Shown piece after piece: positions 3,461-28,477 of a stretch of 64,000 bases of DNA; the first letter of the stretch is position 1, and each line of letters starts with the position of its first letter. The position numbers and the translations under genes were made by a program. Source of the stretch: Lachnospiraceae bacterium (GTDB lineage: Bacteria; Bacillota; Clostridia; Lachnospirales; Lachnospiraceae). Where the stretch lies: NCBI GenBank assembly GCA_022774705.1, contig JALFLM010000129.1, forward strand, positions 22,628 to 86,627, in the 5' to 3' direction. A model generated the notes under the pieces. That model was not told the DNA's origin. It was given only the letters and a program-made list of their open reading frames with translations, and made no database searches.

Positions 3461-3560
3461 CTCTTATTCAGAGTGATGGAGATGTAAGGATCTGTGAAGT
3501 CACGGCAACCCCGGATACCGGAAGGTGCCAGCCTGAGCGAGTAATATCGAACAATAAGAG
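3461..3560 (+). promoter_or_regulatory. SAM-I (S-box) riboswitch aptamer upstream of metK
   Basis: P1 CTCTTATT...AATAAGAG; core AGAGTGATGGAG, GAAGTCACGGCAACC, AAGGTGCCAGCCTGAGCGAG as in the S-box consensus. Confidence 0.93.
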
Positions 3561-3764: not shown

Positions 3765-4955
3765 ATGGAAAGACGTTTATTTACCTCCGAGTCCGTTACA
3801 GAAGGACATCCGGATAAGATGTGCGATCAGATTTCCGATGCGATTCTGGACGCATTGCTGGAACAGGACCCCATGAGCCGTGTAGCATGCGAAACATGCA
3901 CTACCACCGGTCTCGTTATGGTTATGGGAGAAGTAACAACAAAAGCATATGTGGATATTCCGAAAATCGTTCGCGATACCGTTACGGAAATCGGCTATAC
4001 CCGTGCAAAATACGGTTTTGACGCAAGCACCTGCGGTGTTATCACCACACTGGACGAGCAGTCACCGGATATCGCCATGGGTGTTGATAAGGCGCTGGAA
4101 GCAAAAGAAAATACCATGAGCGACGAAGAAATCGAAGCAATCGGTGCAGGCGATCAGGGTATGATGTTCGGTTTTGCAACCAATGAAACGGAAGAATACA
4201 TGCCTTATCCGATTGCTCTGGCTCACAAGCTGGCGCGCCGCCTGACAGAAGTCCGTAAAAACGGTACTCTTCCCTATCTGAGACCTGACGGAAAGACTCA
4301 GGTTACCGTGGAATACGATGAAAACGACAAACCGGTCCGTCTCGATGCGGTCGTACTGTCCACACAGCACGACGAGCAGGTTGCACAGGAGCAGATTCAT
4401 GCCGATATTAAGAAGTATGTATTTGATGAAATCCTGCCTGCTCATATGGTGGATGAGAATACGAAGTTCTTTATCAATCCCACAGGCCGCTTTGTAATCG
4501 GCGGACCTCAGGGTGACAGCGGTCTGACAGGCCGTAAGATCATTGTTGACACCTACGGCGGATATGCACGCCACGGCGGCGGCGCATTCTCCGGCAAAGA
4601 CTGCACAAAGGTTGACCGTTCCGCAGCCTACGCAGCACGTTACGTGGCAAAAAATATCGTAGCAGCAGGACTGGCAGATAAATGCGAAATCCAGTTATCC
4701 TACGCCATCGGCGTAGCAAGACCTACCTCAATCATGGTGGACACTTACGGAACAGGAAGACTCTGCAATGAAAGACTGGTGGAGATCATTCGTGAAAACT
4801 TTGACCTGCGCCCTGCAGGCATCATCAAAATGCTGGATCTGAGACGCCCCATCTACAAACAGACAGCAGCCTACGGACACTTCGGCCGCAATGATCTGGA
4901 CCTCAGCTGGGAAAAAACAGACAAAGCAGAAGCACTGAGAAAGTATCTGAAGTAA
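3765..4955 (+). CDS. metK: S-adenosylmethionine synthetase
   Basis: [52 protein letters not shown]. Confidence 0.98.
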
Positions 4956-4996
4956 TACGGTTCAGGATTCCGGACAGAAGGTATTATTAAATTGAC

Positions 4997-5167
4997 GCCC
5001 GGGCAGTTTACAGGAGGTTCGGGCAGGTGGAATAACATAGATTAACGCGAGGAGGAGTGATACGAGGTCTCTCCGGGAACTGAAAATGTTCCCTATGAGA
5101 CCTGCATCGCTCCTCCTCGCTGACATTCACCGGCCCACCTGCCGTAAAATCATATGACTGCCCGGGC
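4997..5167. repeat. large nested inverted repeat / rod-like structured element
   Basis: Stacked complementary arms: 4997-5006/5158-5167, 5020-5030/5135-5144, 5047-5061/5106-5120, 5065-5071/5097-5103, 5075-5080/5088-5093. Confidence 0.85.
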
Positions 5168-5367
5168 TGGGTATTGAACAACCCTATCTGTCAGAAACAC
5201 TGAACTGCATACGGGGGAAGCAGACATAAGGTAGGAGTCCTGAACGTTATCGCAACCGAAGCAAAGTGAGGCATACCATATATGTGTTTCTTCTGAACCT
5301 CAAAAACTATGGTAAATTCTCTTTAATTGTGGTATGATATCTGCAGCGGTTTGCGAGTGATTTTACA

Positions 5368-5411
5368 GGCTGTCGCAGAAAAGAGAGGCTTTTATTGTGG
5401 CAGTCCTTTTT
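5368..5411 (+). terminator. putative terminator/attenuator immediately before the glucokinase RBS
   Basis: GGCTGTCGCA ... TGTGGCAGTCC stem with wobbles followed by TTTTTATTT. Confidence 0.45.
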
Positions 5412-5428
5412 ATTTAAGGAGGTAACAT

Positions 5429-6361
5429 ATGAAAAAGTGTGTTGGCGTTGACCTTGGCGGTACGACGGTTAAGATGGGAATTCTGGGAGAAGACGGCACA
5501 ATTTTTGAGAAATGGGAGATTCCCACACGTAAAGAGGATAATGGAAAGTATATCCTGGGTGATATTGCTGCTTCTGCTAAGGAACATCTGGCTGCGGCCG
5601 GTATTGCTGACGAGGATTTTGTGGGTGTTGGAATCGGTGTCCCCGGACCGGTTCGGAGCAATGGCTATGTGGAAGTCTGCGTGAATCTGGGATGGAAGGA
5701 TATCAATCCTGCGGCTGAGCTGAGCAGTCTGCTGGGCGGTGTTCCCGTAAAGGCCGGCAACGATGCCAATGTGGCTGCTCTTGGTGAGCAGTGGATGGGC
5801 TCCGGTAAAGGACATGACTCCCTGATGTTCTTTACGCTGGGCACCGGTGTTGGCGGCGGTCTGATCATCGATGGAAAAATTGTGGCAGGCAGCAAGGGTA
5901 TGGGCGCCGAGGTCGGCCATCTGACAGTGAATCCCCATGAGAAGGATTGCTGCAACTGCGGTAATCACGGCTGTCTGGAGCAGTATGCATCCGCTACCGG
6001 TATTGTTAAGGAGATGAAGCGGACTTTGGCGGCTGAGGAAGACAGCTGTGTACTGTGCGGACGCGATTTTTCATGCAAGGATGTGCTGGATGCAGCTAAG
6101 AGCGGTGATGTACTGGCTGTAAAGACCGTGAAAAGATGTATGAATTATCTGGCCATGGCCATGTCATGGGTAACCTACGTGGCGGATCCTGAGGTTTTTG
6201 TTATTGGCGGCGGTGTGTCAAAAGCAGGCGACTATCTGGTAACGATGCTGAAAGACCGTTACAATGAGCTGACCCCCCTCAGCAGTAAGAAAGCCGATAT
6301 TTTCATTGCAAGTCTGTCCAACGATGCCGGTATGTACGGAGCAGCAAAGCTGGTACTGTAG
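5429..6361 (+). CDS. glk: ROK-family glucokinase
   Basis: VDLGGTTVKMGI, GIGVPGPV, TLGTGVGGGLI, CNCGNHGCLEQYAS ROK signature with Cys zinc motif. Confidence 0.93.
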   Translation: MKKCVGVDLGGTTVKMGILGEDGTIFEKWEIPTRKEDNGKYILGDIAASAKEHLAAAGIADEDFVGVGIGVPGPVRSNGYVEVCVNLGWKDINPAAELSSLLGGVPVKAGNDANVAALGEQWMGSGKGHDSLMFFTLGTGVGGGLIIDGKIVAGSKGMGAEVGHLTVNPHEKDCCNCGNHGCLEQYASATGIVKEMKRTLAAEEDSCVLCGRDFSCKDVLDAAKSGDVLAVKTVKRCMNYLAMAMSWVTYVADPEVFVIGGGVSKAGDYLVTMLKDRYNELTPLSSKKADIFIASLSNDAGMYGAAKLVL

Positions 6362-28402: not shown

Positions 28403-28477
28403 GCAGGGCGCCCATGAGGCAAGTCCTGACAGCGGCATTTTCAGCCGCAGAAGGACTTCGTCTCATGGACGCCCTGC
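28403..28477 (-). terminator. long terminator-like hairpin downstream of the FemAB-like gene
   Basis: GCAGGGCG/CGCCCTGC, CCATGAG/CTCATGG, AAGTCCT/AGGACTT, GCGGC/GCCGC nested arms; on the minus strand followed by TGGTTTTTG. Confidence 0.75.

Follow-up and report, generated by a model that had tools for sequence, protein, structure and literature searches.

Judged from its description, the closest functional parallel to the element analyzed here would be SPRITE of pneumococcus, a short dispersed repeat in which a T-rich tract comes after a long stem, and which is enriched near gene 3' ends and whose co-option as a terminator was suggested by its authors (PMC3049150). SPRITE is AT-rich, carries AAAA/TTTT ends and an 18-bp stem and has no demonstrated target duplication (PMC3049150), whereas our element is ~270 bp long and possesses terminal inverted repeats (TIR) with an 8-bp duplication, several nested helices and stems that are free in sequence but compensated. 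The enterobacterial YPAL and ERIC repeats are palindromic MITEs of 127–168 bp with one long hairpin, TIR and target duplication; they are transcribed with upstream genes and affect, or possibly affect, transcript stability (PMC2229807, PMC10969869). They share with our element the similar size, the long hairpin, the TIR and the target duplication, but come from other bacteria and have another sequence, and the element differs from them in that its helix sequence is almost free while short motifs (GACGC/GCTG and TACGAAGTC/GACTTGTA) are fixed. The intergenic repeats bcr1–bcr18 of Bacillus cereus, about half of which are transcribed in UTRs or operon gaps, are, as here, from a Firmicute and either MITE-like (bcr1-3) or of conserved RNA structure (bcr10, bcr18); as far as descriptions can be compared, these are separate families in B. 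cereus, whereas both features meet in one family here (PMC3446304). The CGTC- and GTAG-tagged REPs, in turn, resemble the element in being palindromic, located downstream of genes and edged by a tetranucleotide, and differ in size, having stems of 5–13 bp (8–9 bp in the CGTC type), loops of 2–20 nt and a total length of only 20–40 bp (PMC3733652). No paper came up when the literature was searched for intergenic palindromic repeats of Lachnospiraceae, and the MITE family reported below is apparently undescribed, though an earlier description may exist.

The window (the whole 64,000-nt stretch of DNA that was analyzed) carries a copy of this element on its forward strand, between metK (3765–4955, +; stop codon TAA at 4953–4955) and, 3' of it, a glucokinase-like gene (5429–6361, +), both names resting on the original prediction and on reading of the translations. 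The element starts a few bases after the metK stop codon, as in most copies. Sequence check confirmed the five helices proposed originally, namely helix 1 at 4997–5006/5158–5167, helix 2 at 5020–5030/5135–5144, helix 3 at 5047–5061/5106–5120, helix 4 at 5065–5071/5097–5103 and helix 5 at 5075–5080/5088–5093 around the loop TGAAAAT (5081–5087). The segment 4985–5180 folds at -100 kcal/mol (RNAfold), against -57.9 ± 4.3 kcal/mol in 200 dinucleotide shuffles (z -9.8), none of which was as good. The range 4997–5167 given to the element at first turned out to be too narrow: the element spans ~4959–5249 with further paired ends, in which the left flank GGTTCAGGATTCC-GGACAG (4959–4977) pairs with the right flank CTGTC...CTGAAC...GGAGTCCTGAACGTTA (5188–5249). 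In the fold of 4950–5260 (-137 kcal/mol) these outer flanks are paired, and they correspond to the outer helices and ends of the family. Outside the element, a SAM riboswitch (RF00162, 69.7 bits), quite ordinary, precedes metK at 3461–3560 (+). The glucokinase leader contains a possible hairpin CAGGCTGTCGCA...TGTGGCAGTCC followed by TTTTT (5344–5415, +), which is kept in the sister species (G002) and may be an attenuator or a terminator of something upstream.

Read along the forward strand, the window copy opens with the 5' terminal inverted repeat and outer helix GGTTCAGGATTCC (4959–4971), which corresponds to GTTACTGTTCAGAGATTTC of the full-length copies in the congener G003 and pairs with positions 5234–5246 of the 3' terminal inverted repeat GGAGTCCTGAACGTTA (5234–5249). 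The next motif, GGACAG (4972–4977), is the 5' side of the outer helix H2 and has its partner in CTGTC (5188–5192), a motif pair common to the G003 copies; together with the 3' side of H1 (CTGAAC, 5200–5205), this partner forms a stretch (5188–5205) matching the G003 consensus CTGTCATAAAATGCTGAACAG. The 5' side of the main stem of the outer unit, i.e., helix 1, consists of GACGC, the conserved 5' edge of the stem throughout the family, and CCGGGCAG (4994–5006), which pairs with 5158–5167; in the fold, the 3' side with its GCTG occupies 5158–5169. Helix 2, formed by CGGGCAGGTGG (5020–5030) and CCACCTGCCG (5135–5144), is the outer helix of an inner, nested unit. The main stem of the latter begins with AACGC and the variable stem GAGGAGGAGTGAT (5045–5061, paired with 5106–5120), the columns of which are hypervariable yet paired in 86 copies. 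It is followed by the conserved motif TAC(G)AGGTCTC with one bulged G (5061–5071), corresponding to the family consensus TACGAAGTC paired with GACTTGTA, by the predicted apical hairpin GGGAAC-TGAAAAT-GTTCCC (5075–5093), identical in several copies, and by the 3' side of the inner stem (5097–5124; family consensus GCTGGTTTTTG), which ends in the conserved GCTG with no T's after it. The copy is double, its outer unit, with the stem shortened to GCCCGGGCAG/CTGCCCGGGC, enclosing a second unit, and this nested layout, including helix 2, is repeated in another copy of the same genome (G000), located behind sufB (C176). The stretch behind metK is best explained as an old, internally duplicated copy of the family. 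The right half of the outer helices is gone from the metK copy of G002, whose sequence ends with GCTGCTTTTTT. The core of a second copy, this one with the T-run (GCTGGTTTTTG), lies in the window at 28405–28473 (-) behind another gene of the same strand; it scored 58 and 89 bits with the covariance models R1 and R2 described below, its fold having a z of -5.9.

When the genome was searched by BLASTN with its own element, the sufB copy came up as a second place (76% identity). In relatives, BLASTN revealed copies in congeners only, apart from one 36-nt match in a genome of another family (G093), which was dismissed as chance. Nine copies were aligned (alignment A3) and checked for structure, and the covariance model built from them (R1) was used for a search of the genus; a second model, R2, included the conserved edges. 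The R1 search detected copies in three of the four species and none in the congener G001. By both models, the element occupies at least 12 places in G000, at least ~28 in G002 and at least ~100 in G003, with the best 150 candidates per genome considered for R2; the 16 R2 matches in G000, which include those to the opposite strand of the palindrome, make up 12 distinct places. Three contigs of G002 (C128 and C142 at their starts, C114 at its end) break inside or beside copies, so that the real number of copies is probably larger. The other genomes among 397 of Lachnospiraceae gave no R1 match, under stricter filters and with few candidates scored, and 37 other genera gave no match to R2. A search for the 19-nt apical core GGGAACTGRRAATGTTCCC across all species genomes produced matches outside the congeners that lacked the element, most of them in coding DNA, where they represent the AGTENVP motif of cysteine desulfurases; viral contigs contained nothing of this pattern. 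At the gathering threshold, Rfam had no match to the element in the window or at 13 other loci, the best sub-threshold match being a microRNA model with 24 of 84 bits. The family, as found so far, is confined to a single Lachnospiraceae genus of uncultured gut bacteria. When gene ends were compared, each of the 12 copies of G000 proved to be matched by a copy following the same gene in the sister species G002.

Signs of recent movement come from G003, in which a recent copy used as BLASTN query gave 67 matches. The full-length copies of this genome measure 268–270 bp, start with GTTACTGTTCAGAGATTTC and end with TGAACAGTAAC; the inverted ends of the recent ones read GTTACTGTTCAG...TGAACAGTAAC, and those of the window copy GGTTCAGGATTCC/GGAGTCCTGAACGTTA. 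The octamer GATGCCTT stands on either side of the copy at C53 as a target duplication matching at 8/8 positions, and duplications matching at 7/8 flank the copies at C173, C102, C152 and C192a; that at C181 is poor and not recognizable, and none is recognizable at the window copy, which is old. For the C102 copy there is also an empty site: the locus in G002 (C165) is without the element and has one target-like octamer, GCAGAGCA, the orthologous site comprising ~42 bp there versus ~350 in G003. Deletion derivatives and nested insertions occur among the G003 copies, some of which stop short at the palindrome. The inverted ends, the 8-bp duplications, the empty site and the truncated copies identify the family, which is short, non-coding and present in many dispersed copies, as a MITE. 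No transposase bracketed by the element ends was recognized by a search for the inverted-end pattern in three genomes and by reading the flanks of 17 loci.

On its sense strand, a typical copy consists of H1, H2, the motif UCCAGGGGACGC, a main stem of ~13 free base pairs and UAC-G-AAGUC with the bulged G, followed by an apical hairpin of variable length, GACUUGUA, the other stem arm, GCUGGUUUUUG, H2', H1' and a purine-rich tail. In older copies the element is a ~190-nt rod, in which the letters of the main stem (15–25 bp) are almost free but compensated. In 68 of 84 copies, the eight bases after the conserved CTG, which begin ~3 nt beyond the inner stem, include at least four T's, and in many of the predicted folds the U-run would pair with GGGG via G-U. 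Judged by sequence, i.e., by a GC-rich hairpin and then a U-run, these 68 copies look like intrinsic terminators and the window copy does not; the latter, having no T-run, is no textbook terminator. The original description of the element as far longer than a terminator and devoid of a U-tract therefore fits the window copy, 3' of which a U-tract is absent and around which a simple scan of 4900–5450 detected no terminator-like site, but does not extend to the family. It also mentioned GAGGAGGAG as a possible Shine-Dalgarno signal, which found no support because this sequence lies in the variable stem, where letters differ freely between copies.

The fold persists through changes of sequence. 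In 15 aligned copies, 93.8% of cells pair and 19 of 31 pairs have changed on both sides; 88 cells changed on both sides versus 21.8 in shuffles, and pairing falls to 35–45% when the partner is slid by 1–3 columns. Twelve variable stem pairs scored over 86 copies are ~95% Watson-Crick (~98% with G-U), all four Watson-Crick pair types being present at nearly every position. The outer flanks behave likewise, pairing with each other at -32.9 kcal/mol and with the flanks of other copies at -23.2 ± 0.5 kcal/mol (1000 permutations). As the copies are related, the events behind these counts and those that follow are not independent. Orthologous copies of G000 and G002 were also compared (11 pairs). 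RNAalifold was dropped here as a source of evidence for compensation, as it picks only pairs which both sequences form; instead, one ortholog was folded and the other scored. With the structure derived in this way from a single member, pairing persists in 81 of 100 pairs changed on both sides. One-sided changes comprise 78 G-U, 35 A-C and 141 other mismatches, poorly aligned flanks included; all of these counts are roughly doubled by scoring each pair both ways. Paired positions are less diverged between these orthologs than unpaired ones. In 77 of 86 copies the more stable fold is that of the sense strand and not of its complement, the mean difference being 14 kcal/mol. One-sided states in the variable stem point the same way (34 G-U versus 8 A-C in 86 copies), whereas in the conserved TACGAAGTC segment they are reversed (9 G-U, 27 A-C), mostly owing to one inherited column; since these counts favour opposite strands along the rod, we trust the whole-rod fold energies more. 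Palindromes are known to mutate by template-switch repair, and template switching in replication could imitate some of the covariation but would not produce the strand bias.

The element lies on the same strand as the upstream gene in 62 of the 82 copies with a callable one (11 of 12 in G000, 19 of 23 in G002, 32 of 47 in G003). In 45 of the 62 same-strand copies, the rod starts at -15 to +25 nt relative to the stop codon, with a median of +6; the rod start was set 48 nt before the model core, and genes were called by a simple caller trained on the sequence itself. Random intergenic positions at the same loci were on the same strand in 56% of cases, and 5.8% of those fell 0–25 nt after a stop codon. 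The place taken by the element behind metK in G000 and G002 is occupied in G003 by an ordinary intrinsic terminator. A cobalamin riboswitch (RF00174) is located near one of the G003 copies (L080:8993-9167, -).

Taking the sequence evidence as a whole, we consider it probable that the element represents a new MITE family of one Lachnospiraceae genus that was co-opted to provide hairpins at mRNA 3' ends, and that its movement, present or past, relies on a DDE-type transposase that acts on these ends of the element in trans. After insertion, it would become the transcribed 3' UTR of the gene in front of it (metK in the present case), with the rod being kept for making or protecting the mRNA 3' end, the long hairpin presumably blocking 3' exonucleases. 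Most copies would act as a terminator-like hairpin, i.e., a stem and then GCUG-U5, the 68 of 84 T-rich ones being able to terminate transcription, and the window copy would provide the long 3' hairpin only; because it is without a T-run, protection or weak rather than strong termination is expected at metK. The outer helices 3' of the T-run are compensated too, which suggests that a good part of the transcripts may read through the whole rod; such compensation exceeds what T-run termination alone needs and speaks against a role as terminator only. The 15 of 47 G003 copies antisense to the upstream gene count against the explanation as a whole, as do the excess of A-C states in the conserved segment and the negative search for a mobilizing transposase.

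The main alternative, possible though rather unlikely in our estimate, is that the family is a purely selfish MITE with no function for the host, the hairpin serving mobility only or being kept by replication-linked template switching, and the stop-codon bias reflecting least harm or terminator hairpins as targets. The deletion derivatives and nested insertions in G003 would suit it, as would the preference of YPAL for target regions with dyad symmetry (PMC2229807) and the clustering of REPs at 3' ends in many genomes (PMC3733652), but a selfish element does not readily account for the persistence of all 12 G000 copies behind the same genes in G002, for the lower divergence of paired positions and the mostly compensated double changes between these two genomes, or for the sense-strand bias (77 of 86). 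A REP or BIME mobilized by a RAYT (Y1 tyrosine transposase), with the GACG edge as the CGTC tag of the other strand, is very unlikely, although palindromic structure, intergenic position, a conserved four-base edge and a bulge in the stem recall it. The main stem of 15–25 bp within a ~190-nt rod is far longer than that of CGTC REPs, which have 8–9 bp (PMC3733652), REPs show neither target duplications nor long inverted ends, and the association with a RAYT known for the GTAG type is lacking: PF01797, the transposase family searched for, occurs only as partial or broken fragments in the three element-bearing genomes, while complete Y1 genes were found only in the genome without copies, and a RAYT/Y1 transposase was accordingly rejected as the mobilizer. 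Still less credible is a structured ncRNA restricted to this one locus, or a riboswitch-like element regulating metK or glk; this would explain the strong fold in the metK-glk gap of two species, but it is contradicted by the presence of the element behind about a dozen unrelated genes of G000, and metK already has a SAM riboswitch upstream, G003 and G001 have no element behind metK, and no Rfam family matches it. The original prediction had left the choice between a structured ncRNA and a MITE/REP-like element to BLASTN and covariation. The former brought out dispersed copies, target duplications and an empty site, and the latter is strong, also at orthologous fixed sites. The prediction is partly supported: the family is a MITE, and a sense-strand RNA fold is conserved in its copies.

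Besides co-option of a MITE for 3'-end hairpins, a more far-reaching idea, which we hold to be doubtful, is that the mobile element is itself selected as RNA. The ~13-bp stem, near-random in sequence and almost perfectly paired between fixed motifs, might then belong to a portable 3'-UTR RNA recognized via its ends and the bulged TACGAAGTC/GACTTGTA, possibly by a protein dedicated to binding RNA or hairpins, with the stems being continually rewritten. Were this so, the copies would constitute a genus-wide system of 3'-end tags and not casual terminators. In any case, structural covariation between orthologous fixed copies is clear alongside good evidence of recent mobility, and it is this unusually clear combination that distinguishes the new family, the kind of element being already known. 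With this family a long-standing question can be tested, namely if the palindromic repeats that follow bacterial genes are just tolerated as parasites or turn into working mRNA 3' ends. It also calls for caution, as one copy viewed alone suggests a new ncRNA where the structure is better described as a member of a dispersed repeat family.

Several further sequences were noticed in the course of the searches. In G001, a Y1 transposase domain (C39:2791950-2792312) is situated in an open frame of 988 aa, an unusual length; it is perhaps a fusion or merely an open frame. A second small repeat of ~160–170 bp with the ends GTGTACTG...CAGTACAC interrupts copies of the element at C204:2346-2714 and near position 6287 of C218 in G003. 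Finally, a 71-bp repeat starting with GTTACTGTTCAGAGGTTTG occurs in G002 at C70:6270-6340 and C153:3154-3224; it shares only the inverted end with the element and may be the end of another one.
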